Positions 4,798 to 33,908 of a stretch of DNA of 33,908 nt are shown here, piece by piece (the stretch's first letter is position 1; the number at the start of each line of letters is the position of its first letter). The stretch is from assembly GCA_026416115.1 (NCBI GenBank), contig JAOAFU010000164.1, positions 1 to 33,908 on the forward strand, given 5' to 3'. The notes below the pieces were generated by a model, which searched no databases, was not told the DNA's origin, and saw only the letters and a program-made list of their open reading frames with translations. A program made the position numbers and the translations under genes. This stretch comes from Bacteroidales bacterium (GTDB taxonomy: Bacteria > Bacteroidota > Bacteroidia > Bacteroidales > DTGW01).

Positions 4798-5847
4798 ATG
4801 CACCAATCGAAGAAACTCACACCGCTAAGTTCTTTGGGCGAATTTAAACTGATCGAGCATCTTACTGGCAATTTTCCGATTCGTCATGTTACCACAATAA
4901 AAGGTATTGGAGACGACGCAGCCATACTCGATGCCGGCGATAAGTATATTGTTGTAACAACCGATTTGCTGGTAGAAGGTATTCATTTTAACCTGGTATA
5001 TACCCCTCTAAAGCATCTTGGTTACAAAGCCATCATCGCCAATCTTTCCGATGTATATGCCATGAATGCTATACCCCAACAGGTAACAGTTTCTATTGCT
5101 GTTTCGGCTAAGCTTTATGTAGAACATTTGGAAGAAATATATGCTGGCATAAAATTAGCTTGTGAAAAATACAATGTCGATCTGGTAGGCGGCGATACTA
5201 CATCGTCGATGACAGGTTTAACTATTTCGGTTACTGCCATTGGCTGGGTAAATAAAAACAAGGTAGTATTACGAAATCAGGCACACGAAAATGACTTGAT
5301 TTGCGTAAGTGGCGACCTTGGAGCTGCGTACATGGGACTCCAACTGCTCGAACGCGAGCGTCGACTGTTTGAAAATGAAGGGATTAAGCAACCCGATTTT
5401 GGTTCTTACAGCTACGTTCTCGAACGACAATTAAAACCAGAAGCTAGAAAAGATATTATTGAAATTCTCGAGAAAGCACAGATAATTCCTACAGCCATGA
5501 TAGATATCTCCGATGGGCTCTCATCGGAATTACTCCACATTTGCAAACAATCGCAAAAAGGATGTCTAGTATATCAGCAAAAAGTTCCCATAGCAGCCGA
5601 AACCGAAAAATGTGCTAACGAGTTTAATATACACCCCGTTACCGCTGCACTTAATGGGGGCGAAGATTATGAATTACTTTTTACTGTGCCACTCTCGCAA
5701 TACGAAATTGTTGCTGCAATACCACAGATAAGTATAATCGGATACATTACCGAATCCAATAAAGGTTGCCGGCTTGTTCTCGACAGCGGGGAAGAAGTAG
5801 ATATCGTTGCCCAAGGCTGGAATGCGATGAGCAACGAAACACATTAG
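4798..5847 (+). CDS. thiL: Thiamine-monophosphate kinase
   Basis: Phosphorylates thiamine monophosphate to thiamine diphosphate with ATP, the last step of TPP synthesis. The 349-residue protein shows the PurM/ThiL fold motifs in order: [10 protein letters not shown] (36-45, metal and substrate site), [11 protein letters not shown] (54-64), ANLSDVYAM (81-89), LVGGDTTSS (ATP/Mg site), [15 protein letters not shown] and [12 protein letters not shown] near the C-terminus. Length fits the 320-350 residues usual for the family. The ATG at 4798 follows a strong -7 element. Its last 4 bases overlap the 3' end of the convergent chemoreceptor gene, leaving no room for an intergenic terminator. Confidence 0.94.
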
Positions 5848-7247
5848 AAACGTTCGTATTCAGAGTCTTTATTATCTTCGTCGAAAAGACGAAGGTTAAA
5901 ACCCTTTGTTTTATTTGTTGAATCAGTTGGTAAAGTATTCTTATTCTTTTCTTCTTTTTTTGAACTATTTAATAGATCAGTTAATGGTGGTAAATCTTTT
6001 TTAACTTCTGTTGGTTTTGCTGTAATCCCAATAATTTTCTCTTCAAACTGAGCTTTTCGTTCCTCTAATTTTTTATCTAAAATATTAGAAAGATTTTTAA
6101 CATGGCTTCCGTTGCCATTGTCTTTAGTTTTAGCGTCGAAACGGAAGAAAGCTGTAATTTCTCGAAGGGTTTCGGACTCTTTTGCCAGTTGAACAGCCGT
6201 TTGTGCTAAACTGTCGGACGATACCGCATTTTGCTGGATAACCTGATTTAGACGCTGGAGTGCATTATTAATTTGTTCAGCACCTGCATTTTGCTCTACA
6301 CTTGCAGCGCTGATATCCTGAACTAGCTTGGCAGTATGCTCAATTTCGGGAGCTATTTGTTCGAGTTCTTTAGCAGCTGTTTCGGAAATATTAACACCTT
6401 TAGCTGAAAGTTCGTTAATTTGGTCGGCTGCCACCTTACTTCTTTCGGCTAATTTACGAACTTCGGCAGCTACAACTGCAAAACCACGTCCATGCTCTCC
6501 AGCACGAGCAGCTTCAACCGCTGCATTTAACGCAAGTATATTGGTCTGAAATGCAATGTCGCCAATTATAGAAATTTTCTCGGCTATCAATTTCATCGAC
6601 TCGGCCGCAGTGGTGACCGACTCATTGCCTTTTTTAATGCTTTTAGCTGCTTCAACAGCAATTCGTTCAGTTTGCTTGGAGTTATCGGTGTTAGCCTGAA
6701 TATTAGCAACCATTTCCTCCATACTCGAGGAAACCTCCTGGGCCGATGCTGCCTGGTCGGCGGTACCTTGAGCTAAAACACTTGCCCCCTGACTTATTTG
6801 CTCGCTAAGTTTTACAAGCGTTTTAGAACTTTCCTGAACTCGTGTTGCTATTTCGTTTAACTTGTTGATAAGCTGTTCCATCGAAACAGCCATTTGCCCT
6901 ATTTCGTCGGGACGCTCTTTAACTGTATGTTCGACCGAAGTCTTTAAATTTCCTTCAACCAGTGAATCGATGTTTTCTTTTATCGAACGAAGGGGTTTTT
7001 GAATAGTACGAATAACCCAAATATTGCTTCCCAGTAACCACACTGCTGCTAAAGGGACTATCCAAAAAGCATGCTTAATACCTAAATAGCCGTTTACAAA
7101 CGCTAAAAAGGCAACCCCAAGGGATATAAGGTAAATTAAAGTGGAAACATAAGTAACAATTGTACGTTTAAAAAGAATGCGAACAACCAAAACCCCCACT
7201 GGTGCTGTTACCAATAAAATTATCAAAAAAATCAACACATCATTCAT
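5844..7247 (-). CDS. Methyl-accepting chemotaxis protein with C-terminal docking pentapeptide
   Basis: Chemoreceptor that would signal to CheA/CheW. The 467 residues start with two or three membrane segments (about 3-23, 33-51, 59-77) and no sizeable periplasmic sensor, so it may sense within the membrane or cytoplasm, or through a partner. A HAMP-like linker (about 78-131; Pro85, DEIG at 114-117) leads into a coiled-coil signalling domain. The highly conserved hairpin tip runs [20 protein letters not shown] (228-247) into [20 protein letters not shown]. After about residue 375 comes a charged, low-complexity tail of some 90 residues ending in EYERF. That fits the x-[HFYW]-x-x-[HFYW] pentapeptide that tethers CheR/CheB in other bacteria. 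No che genes are nearby. It lies 127 bases downstream of the IorA-like gene on the same strand. Confidence 0.92.
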
Positions 7248-7268
7248 AAGTACTTCCTTTTAACGATA

Positions 7269-7276
7269 CAAAAATA
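7269..7276 (-). promoter_or_regulatory. -7 promoter element before the chemoreceptor
   Basis: Minus-strand TATTTTTG fits the Bacteroidetes -7 consensus TAnnTTTG and lies 21 bases upstream of the ATG. A second TATTTTTG copy overlaps just upstream (7279-7286). A TTGG about 23 bases upstream of the first copy is a possible -33. An AAGGAA stretch sits 7-9 bases before the ATG. The two overlapping copies leave the exact start of transcription open. Confidence 0.45.
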
Positions 7277-7374
7277 TCAAAAATATATTATCTCACCTTC
7301 CAATATTTAAAGTTACATTTTTTTACGAAAGAATATGATGGAAGTTTTTAAAAATTTAAAAAATGTGAAAAAAA

Positions 7375-8184
7375 TCAGAGATTCAGAATATTACAGATTT
7401 CTTTTGAAGTAATTTTTTTGTTGATTGGTACTATCTGATTTAGCTTACCCCGAATTCGAGTCCCCACACCCATAATTCCTTTTAAATGTTGCTCGATATA
7501 GGGTCGTCCCTCTTCAAGTACTAAGATTTCATCACAAGCATAATAAATCGATTCGACTAGAGATCTCCCTATAGGATAATGCCTAACTTTTAAAACAGGA
7601 TATGCCAACGAAGGTATTTGGTCAAATTCCATACTCACGCTTCCACTTACAATAATGCCAAGGGTTTTGTCATGACCTTGATTAAATTCGTTGAAGGGGG
7701 AGTCGGATGAAAAAGTCTCTAGCGATTTCATTTTCTCGAGAAAATTAAGGCTCGAATAGTCGAGAGGAAAATTCATACTATTTATAAGGTGAGAAATAGC
7801 CTCGATATTCTCTTTTAGATCGTAAGCTTGTTCTGCGAAATGTTCAGGGGCAACAATTAACACCGAAATATTAAATTTTTTTGAAAATAAGACCGAAAAT
7901 GCGAGCATATGGTAGAGTTCATATGAATTAGAAGGCTCAAACACTGGTAGCAAAAAAAGTTCACCCACATATCTGGGATCATGTAAGCAACATTTAGGAT
8001 TCACTACATAAACAACAGAAATTTCCGAATACTTATCTAACAAACCAATCAAGTTATGAGAATTACAAAGAATTATTTCGGGATAATTATTTGCTTTACC
8101 TTGAACATTGTTTACAAACAAAGGAAATTTCTCTTTCCACTCGGCAGTAACAATAATTGAGTAATTATTAAAAAAATTTTTCAC
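7375..8184 (-). CDS. Truncated homologue of indolepyruvate ferredoxin oxidoreductase alpha subunit (IorA-like)
   Basis: The 269-residue protein resembles two stretches of IorA. Residues about 55-115 match the part of the pyrimidine-domain region that reads A-D-D-P...LPVLEPS...E....AF.LSE.....PV in IorA (here LLPVFEPSNSYELY, AFSVLFSKKFNISVLIV). Residues about 175-265 match the transketolase-C-like domain II (GIIVSGSVSMEF, PVLKVRHYPIG, DEILVLEEGRPYIEQHLKGI, then GKLNQIVP). Full IorA is about 530-600 residues. This protein lacks the first part of the pyrimidine domain, the whole TPP-binding domain and the 4Fe-4S ferredoxin tail, so it cannot do the IorA reaction alone. The best start is GTG at 8184; no ATG occurs in frame until about codon 90. 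The frame is intact over its length, which argues against simple decay. Function unknown. Confidence 0.6.
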   Translation of the reverse strand: MKNFFNNYSIIVTAEWKEKFPLFVNNVQGKANNYPEIILCNSHNLIGLLDKYSEISVVYVVNPKCCLHDPRYVGELFLLPVFEPSNSYELYHMLAFSVLFSKKFNISVLIVAPEHFAEQAYDLKENIEAISHLINSMNFPLDYSSLNFLEKMKSLETFSSDSPFNEFNQGHDKTLGIIVSGSVSMEFDQIPSLAYPVLKVRHYPIGRSLVESIYYACDEILVLEEGRPYIEQHLKGIMGVGTRIRGKLNQIVPINKKITSKEICNILNL

Positions 8185-8337: not shown

Positions 8338-8345
8338 CAACTTTG
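8338..8345 (+). promoter_or_regulatory. Probable -7 element for the DUF721-mfd operon
   Basis: CAACTTTG is one base from the TAnnTTTG consensus, and its G lies 13 bases before the ATG at 8358. A T-run (8313-8318) about 20 bases upstream could act as the -33 element. This is the only promoter-like signal on the plus strand in the 173-base spacer shared with the divergent IorA-like gene. Confidence 0.35.
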
Positions 8346-8357
8346 CAAAAAAAGCAA

Positions 8358-8648
8358 ATGCGAAGAAGCAACACCGAAAGTCTTGGAGAAGTTATTCGTA
8401 GGTTGATAAGAGCATATGGACTTGAGGAGAAGCTCAATGAATCAAAAATATATGAAGTGTGGCCTTACGTGGTGGGTGAAGCAATAGCCTCGCGTACGAA
8501 ACGGCTTGCCATTGTAAACAGAGTGCTATTTGTATACCTAAACTCATCCATCGTCAGAGCCGAATTAATTAGAATTAAAGATTCACTTCCTGAAACACTT
8601 AACCGAATGGCAGGAATTGATATGATTGATGAAGTGGTAATCCGGTAA
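8358..8648 (+). CDS. DUF721 / DciA-like protein
   Basis: A 96-residue protein of the DUF721 family, related to DciA, the widespread bacterial loader of replicative helicase DnaB. The conserved parts are the N-terminal helix LGEVIRRLIRAYGLEEKL, the central W-P-x-VVGEAIASRTK segment (about 29-41), and LFVYLNSSIVRAEL followed by a C-terminal DEVVIR strand. Two in-frame starts exist. I take ATG at 8358 rather than the TTG at 8343, because the TTG overlaps the promoter-like CAACTTTG and adds only KKQ-type residues. It ends 12 bases before mfd and is probably co-transcribed with it. Whether the Bacteroidetes members load helicase is an inference from the family. Confidence 0.82.
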   Translation: MRRSNTESLGEVIRRLIRAYGLEEKLNESKIYEVWPYVVGEAIASRTKRLAIVNRVLFVYLNSSIVRAELIRIKDSLPETLNRMAGIDMIDEVVIR

Positions 8649-23843: not shown

Positions 23844-26800
23844 TTATGGTTTATTGGGCAAACGATAGAACGGTCCTGTAGTTGGAACGGGATAAAGATT
23901 AATTGTAAGGACGTTTGAGTATTTTGGCACACAACCTGGTGTCGACATCTTTCTAACGAATTTGGTTGGTGCATTAACTGCACCTGTATAGGTATAATTC
24001 GCGAAATTAGATGAGGGGATATCTATCCAGCTACCATCTCCGGGTAGAGCACTCATATTGGTTGTATACTGCCAGGTATAGGTGTATACTCCACTGCCTC
24101 CTCTCGGGAACACTACGTTGTTAAATGCAGATGGTGAAGTGCCTTTACAAATTGTTTGATCGGCAGCTATCTGGCCTCCCAAACAGTTTGTGGCACCAAT
24201 AGCAAACTGGGTAGAAAGCGAACTTATACCCAAAAGACCTAATCTATGACATATCGTATCACTGGTATTAATTGTGGCATTTTGGTGTGTTCCCTCTAGG
24301 ATCCAGCTACCATTATTGGTCCTTTTGAGTATTCGAGAAGTAGCATTTACATAATTTGTTCCTGTACTAAAATAATTGGCAAGTAGAGAAATATTAAAGT
24401 TTGAACAAGCAAATCCATTAGCAGCAACAGCATCCCAATAACCTTTCGAGAACTGAAGTATAACACTATCGGCGCCTTCGTCTAGCGGTAAACCGGTGCT
24501 ACCTGGATCGCCAACGAGATATCGCATTATTACAGAACCTGAAGTAAGCCCACTGATTGGACGAATGATAGCATAATGAGCTTCGGTAAATGAGCCTACA
24601 GGGAAAATATAGTTAGTTGCTGTAGCTGTTATCCATCTCTCCAATCGACCAACTACTTGACCCGATGTGTATGTAAGATTTCCAGGATTTGCGGTGCTTG
24701 TCCCTACAACAAGTTTGTATGTCCCGGTATTAATATTACCGCTGGTCATTGTTAGTAAGTTAGATACTACCACATTGCCATTGGCAAGTGATACTCCCCC
24801 TCCAGTGTTATTGATTGTTAGTGAATAGAATGTCTCCTGACCTGCTCTGGATATGGTTTGCAAGCTACTACCATCGAAAGTAACAGTACCAACCTGAGGT
24901 ATAAATGTAGCGTTATTGGTCCAGTTGCCCCCTACAAATACATTGTAGGTAGGTGATGTGGAAACATCAAATGTTCCGTTCGAGATGGTAAGGTTGTTGT
25001 TTACATCGAGAGTATTGGTTATTCTAAAAAGGGCATTACCATTTATCTGTAAATCATAGAACGACTGATTTCTAGGGGATATACTCTTTGTGCCTGTACT
25101 AGCAACAAAAACTACCTTACTAGTCCCACAAGTGAAAATACCAGTACCTGTAATAGCCCAGTTTTCACCAACTGTAATTGTACCTGCCCGAGCTACTAAA
25201 GTACCGCCAGTCATGTAATAACGATTTCCAATATTCAAGTTATTACTTGTAACTCCACCATCGGGAGATAAATCCACTATCCCCCTGTTAATGGTTAAAT
25301 TATTGGTAATTCCAATTGTCGAAGGACTAGTGGTACCCAGAGTAAAAGTAGCATTTCCAGTGCCATTACCACTGTTAAAGACCAAATTGTAGAAATTACT
25401 TGTTGACGGGTTAATATTATGTGTGCCCGATGCAGCATTAAATGTAACTGTTTTAGTTCCAGTAGTAAAACTACCTCCATTACTATTCCAACTACCTCCA
25501 ACAGTTAGGTCGTACCCATTAAAATTAAGATTACCTTTGCTTATGGTTAATGAACCTGTAAGCGTAGTATTTGAGTTTAACTTGTATTGAGTAGCAGATC
25601 CGCCTCTAATAATCAGATTATTGAAGGCGCTTGCTCCCTGTTTAATATCCTTTGTTCCCGACGGAGCAGTTAAAATAACTGTAGAATTGCCAGCTGTAAA
25701 GGAACCACCCATTGATGTCCAGTTGTCACCAACATATATTTTGGGATTAGGACCTGTAGCAATAACATTTCCGTAATATAAAAGTTCTTGCTCAATTCGT
25801 ATAGTATCGGCTACTGTTAACGAAGAACCTGTTTGAATTGTGACCTTGCGAGCACGCGCAGTACCAGCTGAGACTAATGGTTTGTTAGTTACGTTAGGTA
25901 TAATTACAAATTTAGAACTGTCGGGAATTAAACCACTCGACCAGTTGCCCCCTAAGAACCAGTTTGTATTTATTGCACCAGTCCAATAATAGGTGTTTTT
26001 ATTCACCCATCGAATAAGTCCGGTATTGGGGTCTTCAAATCCTGGTCCACCCTGATCATACTCATAATTGTAAACGCCAAAAGCACCCGAAGCATCGACC
26101 ATAACCACCAAGTCGGTACCAATGGTTCGGTAAACGTTTCTTATACTTCCACTAATAGGTGCATTGAAAACGACGTTAAATACTGAATCATTCCTACCGC
26201 CGAAACTGCAGTCGTAGCGGAGATAGTACCCACCATTTTGTCCGTACGAGAAAGAACCTTCTGAGAAATTATATACCGAATCTACATAGGCTCCATTGCT
26301 AATAACAATACCATTGGCATTAATATATTCGATATTGTAATATTTTGCTGCGATGCGACCTCCACCATATACAGTTAAACCATAGCCTGTGGTAGCCGGA
26401 ATCTGCGAAGTTATTAAAGCTGATTCATTTGCTGATTTACCAATTATTCTAATATTTCCACCAGAATTAACAATTAACGACGAACCTAATCCCATTCTTA
26501 ATGTTGAGGTAGAGTCGATGATTAAGGTTCCGTTAATGTTGAAATTTTCGGCCGCTACATTCAAATCGCCATAAGTTAATGTTTTACCATTTAGCTGTAA
26601 AGTACCCCCTGCACTAATTGAAACATTACGTATAAAGGTAGTAGAACTTAATAATTTATAGGTAGTTCGAGAAGTTGAAATATCTACATCGTAAAAGGCA
26701 GAACCACCTGCATCGATATATTTTGTCGTTAGTACATTGCAATTGAAAACTACTCTCCCTAAACCGGCATTAAATGTTCCGGCATTTGTCCAATTACCTC

Positions 26801-29800
26801 CAACTGTTAGAACAAAATTATTTGAACTTAGGTTACCTCCTGGTTGAATGCTAAAATCGTTTCTCACTACGGTATTACTCCCTAACTGGTACACTGCGTT
26901 ACCTGCAATAGTGAGATTGTAAAAGGGTAATGTTCCGACATTAATAGTTTTTGAACCAGTAGTGCCATTCATAATTACAGTTCCATTGTTGGTTATGCTA
27001 CCATTAATACCCTTAACAAGGTTACCCATCACTCCTATAATGTCATTGGTAGAATTAAGACGGAACTGCCCATTGATATAGAAATCTCCTTTAACTTGCA
27101 AATCGATGCTATCGTTATGTGTAGGAGTACTAATTCGTAACGAGGCTCCATTGTTGATAGTTAAATTTAATGCTTTAGCCCCTGCTTTGCTAATAATGGG
27201 TTGATTGGTTGCAGGTGCAATTATTACATGTTCGTTACCTGTAGGAACAATGGGAGGACCGTAGCTAGCACTCCAGTTTAGCGAGTCGTTCCAATTGGTA
27301 CTAACCGAACCTATCCATGTTAAAGTTATTGGCCCTGTCCAGATAATCAAATCATTAGGATCGTCGTCGTATGTTTCGCCGGCAAAAATACCCGATGCAT
27401 TGTAAAACTCAATAGTGTCGGCAGCAGAAGATATTTTCCGAACATTAAAAGCAGATCCTCCAGGATTAGTTGGAAATGAAACATCGTTAATACGGTAAAT
27501 TCCGGTTAGTCGCTGAGTATTTTCTATTCGAAGCATACAACCTGTATTCAAACCATTATCGAATGTACAGTAAGAAAAATTGTTGTTCATATCAATCACG
27601 CCAGTAGTATTAATATAAATACCCAACGCATTCATGTATTCAAACAAGGCATACTTTGCAGATATATTACCATTGACAGTAAATCCATATCGGCTTCCTA
27701 CGCCAGCAATGGTGTTATGCGTAATTATGGCAAGGTTTGTAGGTGTTCCAATTACCTGAATACTACCACCATTATTTACCACGAGGTTAGTACCATTTCC
27801 CAGAGCTAAAACTCCACCGGAACCGACAATATAGGTACCCTGAATAGTTACAGCGTCAGTTGCACCATCGCCCAAACTAATGTACTTCCCATTACCGTTG
27901 AAAATACCTGCCTGAATAATGAAATTACCTCTCAGATCCATATTGTCGAGTGCAACATAGGTTGCACCGCCTGGACTATTAATTGTAATGTTGGTTAAGA
28001 CCGAGCCATTTGTCTGAATATACGCCGTTCCTGTAACTTTATTCAAGATAAATGAACCGCTATAGGAAATAGAACCATTTATCGCTCTTAGATCTCCACC
28101 AATGGAAATAGTTTGACCGTTTGGATTGAAAATACCATTTACTATATTGAGATTACCATTAAAAGTATATGGACGATAAGCACAAATTAAACTGTTGGAT
28201 GATTTATTAATAGTAATATGATTGAAGTTGTTATTCGCTAAAGCATTAACATATAAGTATTGATTGGCCGAACCTGTAAAAATAACTTCACCTTGACGTG
28301 CTAAAAATGTACCATACACGCCAGAAACTGGATTGTTGTTATTCCAATTACCTTCAAGGGTAATAGAAAAATTATTCGGCCCAACATCCAAAGTAGAATT
28401 GTATAAAAATAAATTGGAAAGAACAGTTATATCACCACCCAAGGTCTTTACATTTTCAGACATTAAATAAAGAATTCCATAAGTAATAGGGAAAATAGTT
28501 TGATTCACATTACCATCATAAAAAACCATTGAAGTTGGATCGAGATTGTAAAGAGCAAAATTGGAAGGAAAATTGTTAGCACCTCTAACATATAGTCTGG
28601 TATTACCTTCCATAATGAAATTACCGGTACCGGTAGGATTATTAATTTGATATGTACCTAGGATAAGTTGGAAACTACCATTCTTAAGTATCAAGTTACC
28701 CAACACATTAATGTTGTTTTGAATAGTAGTCGAATAATTTTGTAAGGTTAAATTACCGAAAGTTCCGGAGACAATAGTTTGTGTTCCCGCCGGTCGATCA
28801 AAAATCAAAGTTCCGTTGCCCAAATAATTTCCATTGTTTGTCCACGAAAGTCCACTAAAGTAATGAGTTTCGCCACCATCGTTGAATGTAGCCCCGTTTT
28901 GTATCACTACATTCCCATTGAAATCGATACTTGATGCAGGTTCTGCTTTTAAGGTTGCATTTGTTTGAACTGTAGCTATATTTGCTATTGAAATGTTATT
29001 TTGAACAGCTTTGGTTTGCGTCCCATCAAAAGTTACGTTATAAAAATTTGCATTGGTAATTACCTGATTCTGATTGCCATTAAAAATAACGGTACCAGCC
29101 GCAACCGATCCACCTGTTGGCATAAAAGAAGCACCTAAATTTACATAAAAGTCACCTCCTACGTATAGATTGTAATTATTTGTCCCGGGATACAGCTTAC
29201 CATTTAGAATTGATACACTTCCATCGATTGTAATATTGGCTCCGTTCAGGAAAAAATTAGTAGCTGAGTTATCAATTATTATATTATTAAAACGCGAGGT
29301 TAAAGGTGTAATGTTAGCAACCCCAGCTGATGAGTTAAAAACTACTGTACCTCCTCCATGAGAAAATATGCCGAAATTGCCACGAACCCAGTTGCCACCA
29401 ACATATATAGTATCGCTTGCAGATGCTACAGAAAGTACACCTACATTGTTTGCGGTACCTACAATAATATCGCCCGAAACATATAAATGCTTATTGTTTT
29501 CTAATGATAAATTACCGTTTGTGATAGTTAGTGATTTACAAATAGCATGATTATTGGTAATCTTAGGATCGTTTGGTCGATCTGGAATTACTACATCGAC
29601 ATTATTGTCGGGGACTTGATTGATATCCCAATTTCCTGCAGTATGCCAGTCGGTATTTATTGCGCCTGTCCAATTGGCCAACATAATACATGGCCATCTG
29701 AGTAGTCCTGTCGAACAACTTGGTGGCATAACGGCATCATTTTCGTACTGAAATGTTCCAATATTTCCTGTGACATTAGTAAAATTAATAGGTATCGTAG

Positions 29801-32800
29801 CTGTTGTACGACTTACATTAAATAGGTTGACTCCTGGAGTACCTGCAACATTAAAAGTTACATTATTAATAGTAGGATTGGGGATGTTGTCGGTTTCGAT
29901 ACTTAAATAGCGTGCATTGTTTAAAGCAATATTTCGCCAGTTACCATCGCTAAAATTATTAACTGCATCTACATTCGAACCACTCATTACATTTAGACCT
30001 GAATTAGCCAGCAATTCTATCAAATAATATCGTGCTGCAATTGTTCCTCCCGAACGAATGTTAATAACAGGTTCGTTCCCGTTTCTTGCAACTTCCGAAG
30101 TTATAGTTGCAAAAGAAGTACTAGAATTACCAACAATATCAAGCCTCCCATAAACATCTACGGTGCATATCGAACCTTGATTATTAATTCTAAGAGTTGA
30201 AGTATTGTTTATAGTTAATGTTCCGTTGATGATCAAATTTTTATCTGAAGCTACATTACTACCCATGTACAAGGTATTTCCATTTAATACCAATGTTGCA
30301 TTATTTCCAATAGTAGTTGTTCTCCTAAACCTTGTAATGGGTGAGCTCAGGTTATAGGTAACAGGTGCTGTTGGGTTAAAATTAACGTAGTTAAAGTCAT
30401 TTCCTCCGCCGGCTGTTCCATTGCTCAGGATAGTTATAGGTGAGGAATTTCCATTAAAGGTAACTGTACTGGTATTGCACGTAAATGTCCCGTTATTTAT
30501 CCAGTTGCCGCGCAACGCTATGTTATATCCAGCAGTATTGGTGGTTAATGTAGTTCCACTACCTATGGTTAGGTCTCCGCGCAATGTCCAGTTCGACATC
30601 ATGTATTTGATACCTGTACCGCTTGTAGAAACATTTACAGCCGAGAAGGTAGGAACATTAATATATTGAGCACCAGCTCTATTGAAGTTAAAACTAGAGG
30701 AATCGCTATGTACAGCGCCAGCTGTAACAGTAAATGAGTCGACAGCCAGAAAATGCGTAAACGAGCCCATATAAAGTGTAAGTCCTGGGGTGCGTACTGC
30801 CAAACGACCAATTACTCGAATGCCGTTGTTGTATATTCGTTTTGAGCTCCCATTAAGAAAATATATTTGGAAGAAATAATTCTGCGGATTATCCGGACCA
30901 GGATTAAGCCATTGATTCGATGTACTATTGAAAGAAGTTACCCCGGCAGTTTGAGTAAATACACCTCTGTTGTTCCAATTAGTTCCACTAAAGTTGATGT
31001 TTCGGGTAGTAGTAACAACAGCTTCGGGCTGTATGGTTAAATTACCCGATATGTTAACTACGTCATTTGCATCGCCAAGCGTTTTCGCTCCTACTCCTTC
31101 GAAAACCACATTTGCCAAATTTAAACTATTACTTCCGGCACTATAAAGAGTTTGAGCAATGATTCCATTAAGCGTAAGCGTTACCCCAGGTGTTGCGGTA
31201 TAATAATCGAACCTAACGGTACCTCCGCTCACAAAAATATTTTTTGGAGTAGATGGGTTATCGGCATACGTAGAACCATTAGTATTAAAATTACCTTTTA
31301 CTATCAAATCAGCTATACCGTCGTGAGTAACGGTTTTGGTATTTCCAAAGGTGAGATTGCCATACTGAATGTTCTTACCGGTATAAATTATTTGATTATT
31401 ACCATTGAGTGAGTTAAGTACCACCGTACTACTTGGCGAAAGATTATAAACACTGAAACGGGTAGGGAAAGCAGTATCGGGTGCCGCAGTTCTGTTGTAG
31501 AGAATTGCATTATCGCCAAGGGTAAGTGTATCGCCTGGACCAAATATTCTATAGTTTCCAGCATTATACATGTAAAAAATTATTCCACCACGTACCTCGA
31601 GATTACCCGTTATGATAAGATCATTATTCATTTGCTTATAGCTGGAACCAGATAGAATAAGGTTGTTAAAACCGGTTATATCAGGGTCGATTCCCCATGC
31701 TCCGCCAACATGTGTTAAGGTAGATGTGCCTGTTCCCCAATTAATCTGTGTGCCACCCGTAGGCATAACGATGGTCCCAGTTAGGATCATATTGGCGCTG
31801 TTTGTTGCCATGTCGAGGCGAGTCCTAACATCAGCAATGGTCAGGTTTCCTGTAATAATAAGATTCCCAGCCAATACTCTTTTGGTAACTACAGCTCCCG
31901 ATGCAGTTTGTTTCTGAAGTGTAAGGTTACCATAGCTCCAATTATCGGTCATTCTTACAATTTGGGGATCGAGGTCGGAAATATATCGAACTGTACTATT
32001 GCTAGCTAAACTAATATTTCCAAATCCAACAGGAAAATTATCGTAACCATAGAAAGAAACTAATGTAGCCCCTGTAATTGAAAATAATCCGGTTGCAGTT
32101 CCTGTAATGATATGGGTACCAAAGTTAACCCCTCCTGTAATACCGCCCGATATAATAAATTCGCCCGCTACTGTAAATGGTCTATTAATATTTTTTGCAC
32201 CTGTACTGGCCAATGTTATATTGTTAAAAGTTGTGGCGTTTCCGGCTGCAGCATCAATGGCTTGAGCAACAGTCCCATCAAAAATTACTGTACCAGCTCC
32301 ATTCTGGGTAAAAGTTCCAAAATTGCTCCAGTTACGCCCAACATAAATAATCTTATCCTGTCCGTTAAATGTTGCACCTGCCTGTATGGTTATATCATTG
32401 TTTGCATCGATATTGTTAACAGCAGTTTTGGTTCCGCCACTAAAGTCTATATTATAGAAAGAATTTGTACAGTCAATTAGCTGATTATTGCCGTTAAAGT
32501 AAACAAATGAATTTCCATTATTAAAAAATCCATTGTTTGAGGTATTAACAGTAAAATTACCTGAGACAGTCAGGGTATTAGCTGGTAAAATTTGGTCGAG
32601 CGTTCCTTTATTGATTAAAAGATTACCAGCAACATAAACTGGTTGACTAAAGTTATATTTTGAAGCAGAATTAGCATTAATAATGAGGTTATAGAAACGT
32701 TTTCCAACAGCAGTTCCTCCAGATACGATACTGTAAGTACCATTACCGCCACAAAAATTCACTGTTCCATTATTATGAGTAAAAGTCCCATCATTGATCC

Positions 32801-33908
32801 ATGAACCTTTTATGTGCACTGTATCGCTATTATCAGCAAGAATTAATGTTGCGGAATTTCTAATATGGAGGTTTTCATTAATACGTAAATCATATCCTCT
32901 ACGAATCTGAAGCGTAATAGAAGGACCTAAATCATAGTTTATGATTAATCTTTTAGCACGCGCATCGGCCGAGTCGGCATTAACGGTATAAGCTCCAGCA
33001 ATGTAGGTGTGATCGAGATAAACTATGGTACTATCGTCGGGAACGGTATTTGACGACCAGTTTCTAAAGTTCGACCACTCGCCAGTTCCAGCTGCATTTG
33101 TCCAATAAACTCCTGTAGGATAGCTCCAAAATACCTGGTTTGCGGCATCACTTTCAAAAGTAGCTCCGGCAAGCGAACCGGTAGCATCGACGAAAGTAAT
33201 GGTACCTGTGCTTCCTAAAGGTCTAAAAACATTAAATTGTACAGCTGTAGGTCCAGTTCCTGCATTAAATCTTACATTCGAAACACTAATATTAGGTAGA
33301 GTATAACCCGACAAATTAAGGTAGGCTGCCCCCGTTCCTCCAGTAAAGGTTCCATTCGAAAAATTGTTGGTAGGATGAATTGATGTAGAACTATTCAGGA
33401 AAGAAACTCCGTATGTACCCACGCCACCACCACAGCCATTGATTTCGTATTGTCTTGCTTCAATAGTTCCACCCAACAATCTGATAAAATAGTTACCCGA
33501 AATTTTATTAATTTTTGCTTCATTTCCGGCTACACCAACAATTCGTAAAGTGCCGTTTCTTAAAATTAAGGAATCGAGTGTACCACCAAATTGTAATACT
33601 GCTGCTGAATCGATTTCTAATGTTCCTCCATCAACGATAATTCTATAAGGATTCCCACTAGCTGTCAACATTTTACTATTTAAATCGAGGGTACCAGAGT
33701 AAATTCTTAAAGTATCGTTCCCAGAAAGATTAAGAGTACTTAAGAGTTTATAGGTTGAAGATGGAGCATTTATAAACATTCCGACAAATGTTGCTCCATT
33801 GGCATCAATTATTTTATTACCACCAGAGCTGCTATTAAAATAAACATTTGAACTAGCCGCTTGGGTAAAAGAGGTGCTTGGAGATTGAGACAATGGGGCA
33901 GGATTGTA
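23844..33908 (-). CDS. Giant repeat-rich surface protein (N-terminus outside the window)
   Basis: One frame stays open for more than 3350 codons and continues past the window edge; the last residues there read YNPAPLSQSP with no start. The protein is Gly/Asn/Thr/Ser-rich and looks like a right-handed beta-helix. At least 14 copies of a loose motif G-x-NW-x-N-x-G-x-F-x(3-5)-GTV-x-F-x-G ... I ... F-x-NL-x-I recur through it. Four larger junctions (repeat entries) each carry a W-T-G-A-x-x-T-x-W-x(4)-NW segment. Near the C-terminus come a module with IFPVGSFTEAHYAIIRP (about 24540-24620) and an Ig/PKD-like module (about 24185-23865; QTICKG, GGSGVYTYTWQ, PTTGPFYRLPN), both familiar from secreted Bacteroidetes proteins. 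It then stops after NKP with no recognisable type IX sorting domain. An adhesin or matrix role is inferred. No catalytic motif seen. Confidence 0.85.
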   Translation of the reverse strand, partial: YNPAPLSQSPSTSFTQAASSNVYFNSSSGGNKIIDANGATFVGMFINAPSSTYKLLSTLNLSGNDTLRIYSGTLDLNSKMLTASGNPYRIIVDGGTLEIDSAAVLQFGGTLDSLILRNGTLRIVGVAGNEAKINKISGNYFIRLLGGTIEARQYEINGCGGGVGTYGVSFLNSSTSIHPTNNFSNGTFTGGTGAAYLNLSGYTLPNISVSNVRFNAGTGPTAVQFNVFRPLGSTGTITFVDATGSLAGATFESDAANQVFWSYPTGVYWTNAAGTGEWSNFRNWSSNTVPDDSTIVYLDHTYIAGAYTVNADSADARAKRLIINYDLGPSITLQIRRGYDLRINENLHIRNSATLILADNSDTVHIKGSWINDGTFTHNNGTVNFCGGNGTYSIVSGGTAVGKRFYNLIINANSASKYNFSQPVYVAGNLLINKGTLDQILPANTLTVSGNFTVNTSNNGFFNNGNSFVYFNGNNQLIDCTNSFYNIDFSGGTKTAVNNIDANNDITIQAGATFNGQDKIIYVGRNWSNFGTFTQNGAGTVIFDGTVAQAIDAAAGNATTFNNITLASTGAKNINRPFTVAGEFIISGGITGGVNFGTHIITGTATGLFSITGATLVSFYGYDNFPVGFGNISLASNSTVRYISDLDPQIVRMTDNWSYGNLTLQKQTASGAVVTKRVLAGNLIITGNLTIADVRTRLDMATNSANMILTGTIVMPTGGTQINWGTGTSTLTHVGGAWGIDPDITGFNNLILSGSSYKQMNNDLIITGNLEVRGGIIFYMYNAGNYRIFGPGDTLTLGDNAILYNRTAAPDTAFPTRFSVYNLSPSSTVVLNSLNGNNQIIYTGKNIQYGNLTFGNTKTVTHDGIADLIVKGNFNTNGSTYADNPSTPKNIFVSGGTVRFDYYTATPGVTLTLNGIIAQTLYSAGSNSLNLANVVFEGVGAKTLGDANDVVNISGNLTIQPEAVVTTTRNINFSGTNWNNRGVFTQTAGVTSFNSTSNQWLNPGPDNPQNYFFQIYFLNGSSKRIYNNGIRVIGRLAVRTPGLTLYMGSFTHFLAVDSFTVTAGAVHSDSSSFNFNRAGAQYINVPTFSAVNVSTSGTGIKYMMSNWTLRGDLTIGSGTTLTTNTAGYNIALRGNWINNGTFTCNTSTVTFNGNSSPITILSNGTAGGGNDFNYVNFNPTAPVTYNLSSPITRFRRTTTIGNNATLVLNGNTLYMGSNVASDKNLIINGTLTINNTSTLRINNQGSICTVDVYGRLDIVGNSSTSFATITSEVARNGNEPVINIRSGGTIAARYYLIELLANSGLNVMSGSNVDAVNNFSDGNWRNIALNNARYLSIETDNIPNPTINNVTFNVAGTPGVNLFNVSRTTATIPINFTNVTGNIGTFQYENDAVMPPSCSTGLLRWPCIMLANWTGAINTDWHTAGNWDINQVPDNNVDVVIPDRPNDPKITNNHAICKSLTITNGNLSLENNKHLYVSGDIIVGTANNVGVLSVASASDTIYVGGNWVRGNFGIFSHGGGTVVFNSSAGVANITPLTSRFNNIIIDNSATNFFLNGANITIDGSVSILNGKLYPGTNNYNLYVGGDFYVNLGASFMPTGGSVAAGTVIFNGNQNQVITNANFYNVTFDGTQTKAVQNNISIANIATVQTNATLKAEPASSIDFNGNVVIQNGATFNDGGETHYFSGLSWTNNGNYLGNGTLIFDRPAGTQTIVSGTFGNLTLQNYSTTIQNNINVLGNLILKNGSFQLILGTYQINNPTGTGNFIMEGNTRLYVRGANNFPSNFALYNLDPTSMVFYDGNVNQTIFPITYGILYLMSENVKTLGGDITVLSNLFLYNSTLDVGPNNFSITLEGNWNNNNPVSGVYGTFLARQGEVIFTGSANQYLYVNALANNNFNHITINKSSNSLICAYRPYTFNGNLNIVNGIFNPNGQTISIGGDLRAINGSISYSGSFILNKVTGTAYIQTNGSVLTNITINSPGGATYVALDNMDLRGNFIIQAGIFNGNGKYISLGDGATDAVTIQGTYIVGSGGVLALGNGTNLVVNNGGSIQVIGTPTNLAIITHNTIAGVGSRYGFTVNGNISAKYALFEYMNALGIYINTTGVIDMNNNFSYCTFDNGLNTGCMLRIENTQRLTGIYRINDVSFPTNPGGSAFNVRKISSAADTIEFYNASGIFAGETYDDDPNDLIIWTGPITLTWIGSVSTNWNDSLNWSASYGPPIVPTGNEHVIIAPATNQPIISKAGAKALNLTINNGASLRISTPTHNDSIDLQVKGDFYINGQFRLNSTNDIIGVMGNLVKGINGSITNNGTVIMNGTTGSKTINVGTLPFYNLTIAGNAVYQLGSNTVVRNDFSIQPGGNLSSNNFVLTVGGNWTNAGTFNAGLGRVVFNCNVLTTKYIDAGGSAFYDVDISTSRTTYKLLSSTTFIRNVSISAGGTLQLNGKTLTYGDLNVAAENFNINGTLIIDSTSTLRMGLGSSLIVNSGGNIRIIGKSANESALITSQIPATTGYGLTVYGGGRIAAKYYNIEYINANGIVISNGAYVDSVYNFSEGSFSYGQNGGYYLRYDCSFGGRNDSVFNVVFNAPISGSIRNVYRTIGTDLVVMVDASGAFGVYNYEYDQGGPGFEDPNTGLIRWVNKNTYYWTGAINTNWFLGGNWSSGLIPDSSKFVIIPNVTNKPLVSAGTARARKVTIQTGSSLTVADTIRIEQELLYYGNVIATGPNPKIYVGDNWTSMGGSFTAGNSTVILTAPSGTKDIKQGASAFNNLIIRGGSATQYKLNSNTTLTGSLTISKGNLNFNGYDLTVGGSWNSNGGSFTTGTKTVTFNAASGTHNINPSTSNFYNLVFNSGNGTGNATFTLGTTSPSTIGITNNLTINRGIVDLSPDGGVTSNNLNIGNRYYMTGGTLVARAGTITVGENWAITGTGIFTCGTSKVVFVASTGTKSISPRNQSFYDLQINGNALFRITNTLDVNNNLTISNGTFDVSTSPTYNVFVGGNWTNNATFIPQVGTVTFDGSSLQTISRAGQETFYSLTINNTGGGVSLANGNVVVSNLLTMTSGNINTGTYKLVVGTSTANPGNLTYTSGQVVGRLERWITATATNYIFPVGSFTEAHYAIIRPISGLTSGSVIMRYLVGDPGSTGLPLDEGADSVILQFSKGYWDAVAANGFACSNFNISLLANYFSTGTNYVNATSRILKRTNNGSWILEGTHQNATINTSDTICHRLGLLGISSLSTQFAIGATNCLGGQIAADQTICKGTSPSAFNNVVFPRGGSGVYTYTWQYTTNMSALPGDGSWIDIPSSNFANYTYTGAVNAPTKFVRKMSTPGCVPKYSNVLTINLYPVPTTGPFYRLPNKP
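25872..26273 (-). repeat. Junction repeat 4 of the giant protein
   Basis: Fourth copy: YNFSEGSF, FNVVFNAPISGSIRNVYRTI, VVMVDASGAFGVYNYEYD, GLIRWVN, then YWTGAINTNWFLGGNW and FVIIPNVTNKPLVS. WTGAINT is identical to copy 2. It is followed by four evenly spaced, closely similar beta-helix blocks before the C-terminal modules. Confidence 0.7.
27198..27590 (-). repeat. Junction repeat 3 of the giant protein
   Basis: Third copy: NNNFSYCTF, INDVSFPTNPGGSAFNVRKI, TIEFYNASGIFAGETY, DLIIWTG, then TWIGSVSTNWNDSLNW and HVIIAPATNQPIIS. The segment after NW is a few residues longer than in the other copies. About 440 residues to the next copy. Confidence 0.7.
29575..29965 (-). repeat. Junction repeat 2 of the giant protein
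   Basis: Second copy of the module: NNFSDGNW, then NPTINNVTFNVAG, LFNVSRTTATIPINFTNVTG, GLLRWP, and NWTGAINTDWHTAGNW followed by VPDNNVDVVIP. It includes two cysteines (S-C-S-T-G and W-P-C) absent from the other copies. About 790 residues to the next copy. Confidence 0.7.
33010..33367 (-). repeat. Junction repeat 1 of the giant protein
   Basis: Protein-level repeat of about 120 residues. It opens NNFSNGTF, passes FNVFRPLGSTGTITFVDATG and ends with YWTNAAGTGEWSNFRNW and VPDDSTIVYLD. It is the most diverged of the four copies (T-N-A-A in place of T-G-A-I). About 1130 residues separate it from the next copy. Confidence 0.65.

Follow-up and report, generated by a model that had tools for sequence, protein, structure and literature searches.

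The window analysed here (33,908 nt, the entire contig C28 of the Bacteroidales genome G000) contains an open reading frame of 269 codons that resembles the alpha subunit of indolepyruvate:ferredoxin oxidoreductase (IorA), which raises the question whether this orphan is an enzyme remnant now used for binding or regulation, a partner of another oxidoreductase subunit, or a young pseudogene, the three options left by the original prediction. Inspection of the open reading frames confirmed that the frame is intact, with zero internal stop codons, a GTG start and 17 more open codons upstream of it. Assignment of the start rests on this GTG because the earliest ATG is found only at codon 93, whereas 15 of the 18 other called genes in the window start with ATG. 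The chance of an open frame of this length is ~2e-9 (base composition alone), and its GC content is 34%. The features of the locus are given in Table 1.

Table 1. Coordinates of the orphan, its domains and its surroundings within the window
Feature	Position	Strand	Remarks
IorA-derived frame, 269 aa	7375..8184	-	GTG start, first ATG = codon 93
Domain I (pyrimidine-side), residues 1–143, strongly diverged and shortened	7756..8184	-	22% identity to IorA on average; R71 kept, NEK substituted, YPGTP loop and SSQN lost
Domain II, residues 144–269, better kept	7378..7755	-	35–40% identity to closest IorA proteins; LLPxxARxxY segment absent
Gap of 127 bases between the orphan and the chemotaxis gene	7248..7374	.	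20% GC; no trace of the IorA TPP-binding half
Methyl-accepting chemotaxis protein (MCP), HAMP + MCPsignal, downstream neighbour	5844..7247	-	Linkage not conserved
dciA-like gene (PF05258), divergent neighbour, then mfd	8343..8648	+	

Homology to IorA was detected with the NCBIfam model TIGR03336 (IOR_alpha), which matched residues 69–267 of the orphan to model positions 118–332 of 595 (E=1.1e-16, 60.4 bits), covering part of the pyrimidine-side domain (I) and domain II. This score is below the curated cut-off of the model (650.9 bits), as are those of the full-length IorA proteins of genomes G001 and G002 (539 and 516, respectively). Full-length IorA proteins of relatives matched the orphan with E-values down to 2e-32, and the strength of both types of match means that the resemblance is not due to chance. 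A Pfam search and a single-sequence PDB search with the orphan gave no match. The likeness to IorA originally noticed by eye was borne out by the alignment, in which LPVFEPSNSYELY and DEILVLEEGRPYIEQHLKGI correspond to IPxxEPxNQQEAY and DEILVLEDGYPxVEExLKG of IorA, and the SSQNE segment is shortened as described (MHSSQNEQDSRFYG against LH------DPRYVG).

Domains were assigned by alignment of the orphan with 87 IorA frames. Residues 1–67 correspond only weakly, and in shortened form, to the N-terminus of IorA, with residues 1–36 weakly aligned and poorly modelled, and domain II stops at the expected beginning of the IorA TPP-binding half. Within domain I the YPGTPSTE loop (YPxTP motif) and SSQN are deleted in the alignment; TRLAHSR is replaced, and in domain II the LLPxxARxxY segment is deleted. 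The NEK columns, which contain what we take to be the TPP-activating glutamate of IorA, hold K, F and P in the orphan, and a KEK two residues before these columns may be a shifted counterpart, making loss of the glutamate slightly uncertain. With the YPGTP loop and SSQN deleted and the NEK glutamate replaced, the alignment makes TPP catalysis by the orphan very unlikely. In a Sulfolobus 2-oxoacid:ferredoxin oxidoreductase (OFOR), the substrate carboxylate is bound by an Arg together with the Thr of the YPxTP motif, and the dimer interface involves both domain I and domain II (PMC5020499). This Thr is missing from the orphan, and the arginine of the conserved QDSR segment is retained as R71, probably the carboxylate-binding Arg. 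The original prediction also listed the ferredoxin tail among the losses; a [4Fe-4S] tail is indeed absent, but this is not a distinctive feature, as the Cys motif was present in only 2 of the 87 IorA relatives examined. The IorA of G003/G033 is of the ferredoxin-tailed kind.

The catalytic TPP-binding domain is gone, with the TIGR03336 match ending at position 332 and alignment of full IorA proteins to the flanks giving no trace of this half in any frame. A recent truncation or an assembly error, in which the remainder of iorA belongs in frame at this place, would be in keeping with the full-length IorA of relatives and with a draft genome of 252 contigs, but was rejected since the flanks lack any such remainder. 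Full IorA proteins align to the frame alone, both neighbours are intact, and the highest identity of the orphan to any IorA is 37%, far beyond a recent truncation. Furthermore, the gene order dciA-mfd-MatE is shared with the same-genus genome G001, which indicates that the contig is native, and we consider truncation or misassembly extremely improbable.

The orphan was modelled with AlphaFold using 38 IorA relatives as alignment, so that the fold partly follows from homology; the model had a pLDDT of 82.5 and a pTM of 0.82, with values <50 only at residues 1–5 and 25–32. The top Foldseek match was the OFOR alpha subunit OorA (8ys5_A, E=2.4e-8, TMq 0.65), followed by 9bt4_A (E=2.2e-7), PFORs, and then DXS and transketolase-type proteins, and the orphan is thus predicted to adopt the fold of an OFOR alpha subunit consisting of domains I and II.

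Comparison with known systems showed likeness to the tail-less Bacteroidales IorA proteins matched by TIGR03336 (such as those of G002 and G277), which align with residues 68 to ~260 at 33–37% identity and share the domain II motifs YPVLK, EILVLEEGxP and, with G002, GIMGVGTRI. Unlike these proteins, the orphan lacks the YPGTP loop, the TPP-binding half, SSQN, LLPxxAR and an accompanying iorB, and has the NEK glutamate replaced. The alpha subunits encoded by separate genes (KorA, OorA; 8ys5_A) likewise comprise just domains I and II and have the matching predicted fold, but the orphan is ~100 residues shorter, lacks the catalytic loop, has no beta or gamma genes beside it and shows 12% identity. 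A fold match was also found with the split-gene transketolase beta chain (PDB 6yaj, E=7e-5), likewise a polypeptide of its own within the broader group of TPP-enzyme folds, which is only 10% identical and not an oxidoreductase.

The likeness to KorA and OorA, together with a Kor-type oxidoreductase set on contig C115 of G000, could be read as the orphan being a working alpha subunit, with the TPP-binding beta subunit encoded elsewhere as in KorA/KorB. We regard this as very improbable, since the orphan has lost both the YPGTP loop and the activating glutamate, beta and gamma genes are missing from its neighbourhood, the set on C115 includes its own alpha gene, and the genome lacks an iorB-type gamma subunit. 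The broader option of the original prediction, a partner of another oxidoreductase subunit, is conceivable; the adjacent genes do not encode oxidoreductases, and the assembly contains no iorB. A full iorAB pair elsewhere in the genome was searched for as well, and neither a second iorA nor an iorB was found in the G000 assembly (92% complete). The three POR-gamma matches in G000 belong to other oxidoreductases, and a query with the IorB of G001 retrieves those alone.

In G001 an iorA-iorB-paaK cluster adjoins purA. The corresponding stretch upstream of purA in G000 is unbroken and carries other genes, and the possibility of an iorAB hidden in an assembly gap was therefore rejected. By eye, the genes upstream of purA in G000 (L224, C164:4000-12000) form a run of secreted-looking, repeat-like proteins at the site of the G001 cluster. 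The IorA of G001 (L031 and L055, on contig C54) groups at 100/99 with the IorA of another class (f136) in the tree, and the cluster may thus have arrived by transfer, perhaps at a later stage, and the orphan does not have to derive from it.

Relatives of the orphan were searched for in sets of 60, 393 and 395 genomes, representing ~790 different Bacteroidota genomes. Nearly all listed matches are located in frames of ~530–600 codons, corresponding to full IorA length, with a few in shorter ones (199–490 codons). A pattern scan with the domain II alignment over ~85,000 species genomes gave at least 528 relatives, and in 77 of the 80 kept from these a complete-length IorA frame was present; two frames among the 80 were cut by the ends of their loci (L194, 501 residues; L189, 320 residues). 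The last of the 80, from Ignavibacteria (UBA5771, L210), is an IorA-like frame of 378 residues without the N-terminal YPxTP motif, which may reflect a break in the frame or shortening of the gene. A homologue of the same length, which the original prediction had proposed to look for in Bacteroidota, was found neither in the ~790 Bacteroidota genomes nor among the 80 kept of the at least 528 pattern-scan relatives, and the orphan is a singleton within the genomes searched. Single-protein scans of genome contigs and viral contigs gave no relative, and collections of plasmids and phages gave four matches with 27–31% identity, two of which are annotated as TPP-dependent enzymes. In the tree the orphan has a branch length of 6.83 and no settled place, with the AU test rejecting neither a grouping with G002 (p-AU 0.51) nor one with G001 (0.51). 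Literature searches for a stand-alone IorA fragment found no paper.

The order of conservation is reversed in the orphan: mean identities in domains I and II were 69% and 53% between IorA proteins, but 22% and 34% between the orphan and IorA. Among columns that are ≥90% invariant, the orphan agrees with IorA at 19 of 62 aligned positions in domain I, compared with 18 of 29 in domain II (Fisher p=0.006 for aligned columns only, p=0.001 when deletions are counted). This contrast leans on the weakly aligned residues 1–66; for residues 67–143 alone, conservation did not fall significantly below that of domain II (p=0.41). Neutral change was simulated from two IorA genes until the invariant columns of domain I had diverged as much as observed (t about 0.5, 400 runs each), with an equilibrium GC content of 28% and on the assumption that invariant columns stayed fixed until catalysis was lost. 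On average 12.6–13.8 stop codons were expected, compared with none in the orphan, 0/400 runs stayed open, and domain II was as conserved as observed in ~1% of the neutral runs. The frame stays open across several indels, and its codon log-odds score was 0.165 in frame versus −0.136 ± 0.123 in the wrong frames, which is toward the low end of the genes in the window (others 0.118–0.394).

None of the signs of a pseudogene looked for in the orphan (stops, frameshifts, loss of coding signal) was found, and with a kept coding signal and no stops where ~13 are expected, a young pseudogene is unlikely; the divergence is also of long standing, and the remainder of the gene is not seen at this locus in any relative. 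Ranked second among the readings, and possible if still unlikely, is a decaying pseudogene or old relic, that is a truncated, functionless copy of IorA, perhaps first repurposed and then released, with a frame left open by chance or owing to a recent release. The missing ends, the lost catalytic loops, the GTG start, the low GC content, the singleton status and the weak promoter evidence are consistent with such a relic, whereas the lack of stops at this divergence, the coding signal and the ~60% of invariant domain II columns kept argue against it.

The best reading is that of a retained protein, and reuse of an enzyme remnant fits best of the three options originally raised, given the absence of stops, the coding signal, the better kept domain II and the confidently predicted fold. 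We estimate a probability of roughly 55% that the orphan is a retained, non-catalytic protein (pseudoenzyme) derived from IorA, with a presumed binding or regulatory use, and infer that it is expressed and under selection. Its ancestor would have been a tail-less, Bacteroidales-type IorA from which the TPP-binding half disappeared, together with the domain I loops for substrate and cofactor; fast evolution may have followed, yet leaving an open, folded protein with a reduced domain I and domain II. The protein might work via those surfaces of domains I and II that dimerise and hold other OFOR subunits, and could bind itself or a remaining oxidoreductase such as the Kor-type complex; alternatively, it may bind an oxoacid-like ligand via the kept arginine without catalysis. 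More doubtful is the specific proposal of a lineage-specific regulatory or ligand-binding protein that arose from IorA domains I and II after loss of the enzyme and acts on another 2-oxoacid:ferredoxin oxidoreductase or a sensory pathway. Pseudoenzymes kept as regulators retain their fold and frame but have lost catalytic residues. The orphan shares the frame, the predicted fold and these losses, with its partner or regulated enzyme a candidate only. It works like no proven system and does not qualify as a functional IorA, and the term pseudoenzyme is applied by analogy. If the protein is made, an anaerobic core enzyme would have been reduced to non-catalytic domains and kept, suggesting a role of 2-oxoacid:ferredoxin oxidoreductase domain II beyond catalysis; if not, the frame would be an ordinary relic.

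The orphan is surrounded by genes for the MCP, a thiL-like protein (AIRS domain), dciA and mfd, with no OFOR beta or gamma genes alongside. The MCP gene follows 127 bases downstream on the same strand, and no site resembling a terminator was detected between the two; this could suggest that the orphan is a co-transcribed sensory accessory protein that presents a ligand to the chemoreceptor. This is improbable: the best MCP relatives (61% and 50% identity, in G002 and G003) have other upstream neighbours, the MCP-thiL adjacency is kept in G002 where the orphan is absent, and the dciA-mfd locus of G001 has neither orphan nor MCP. Promoter-like matches in the AT-rich gap were at about chance level, and a clear promoter of the Bacteroidales type was not found for the orphan. 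The sensory link suggested by the original prediction is thus unsupported and positional only. In G001 the ~1.1 kb upstream of dciA (L064:1-1100) contain no frame of 80 codons, and repeated stretches are visible by eye. Elsewhere in the window, an open frame of 3349 codons (23844-33893, minus strand) gave no Pfam match at E≤1e-4, and has a GC content by codon position (0.41, 0.46 and 0.29) unlike that of the other genes in the window.
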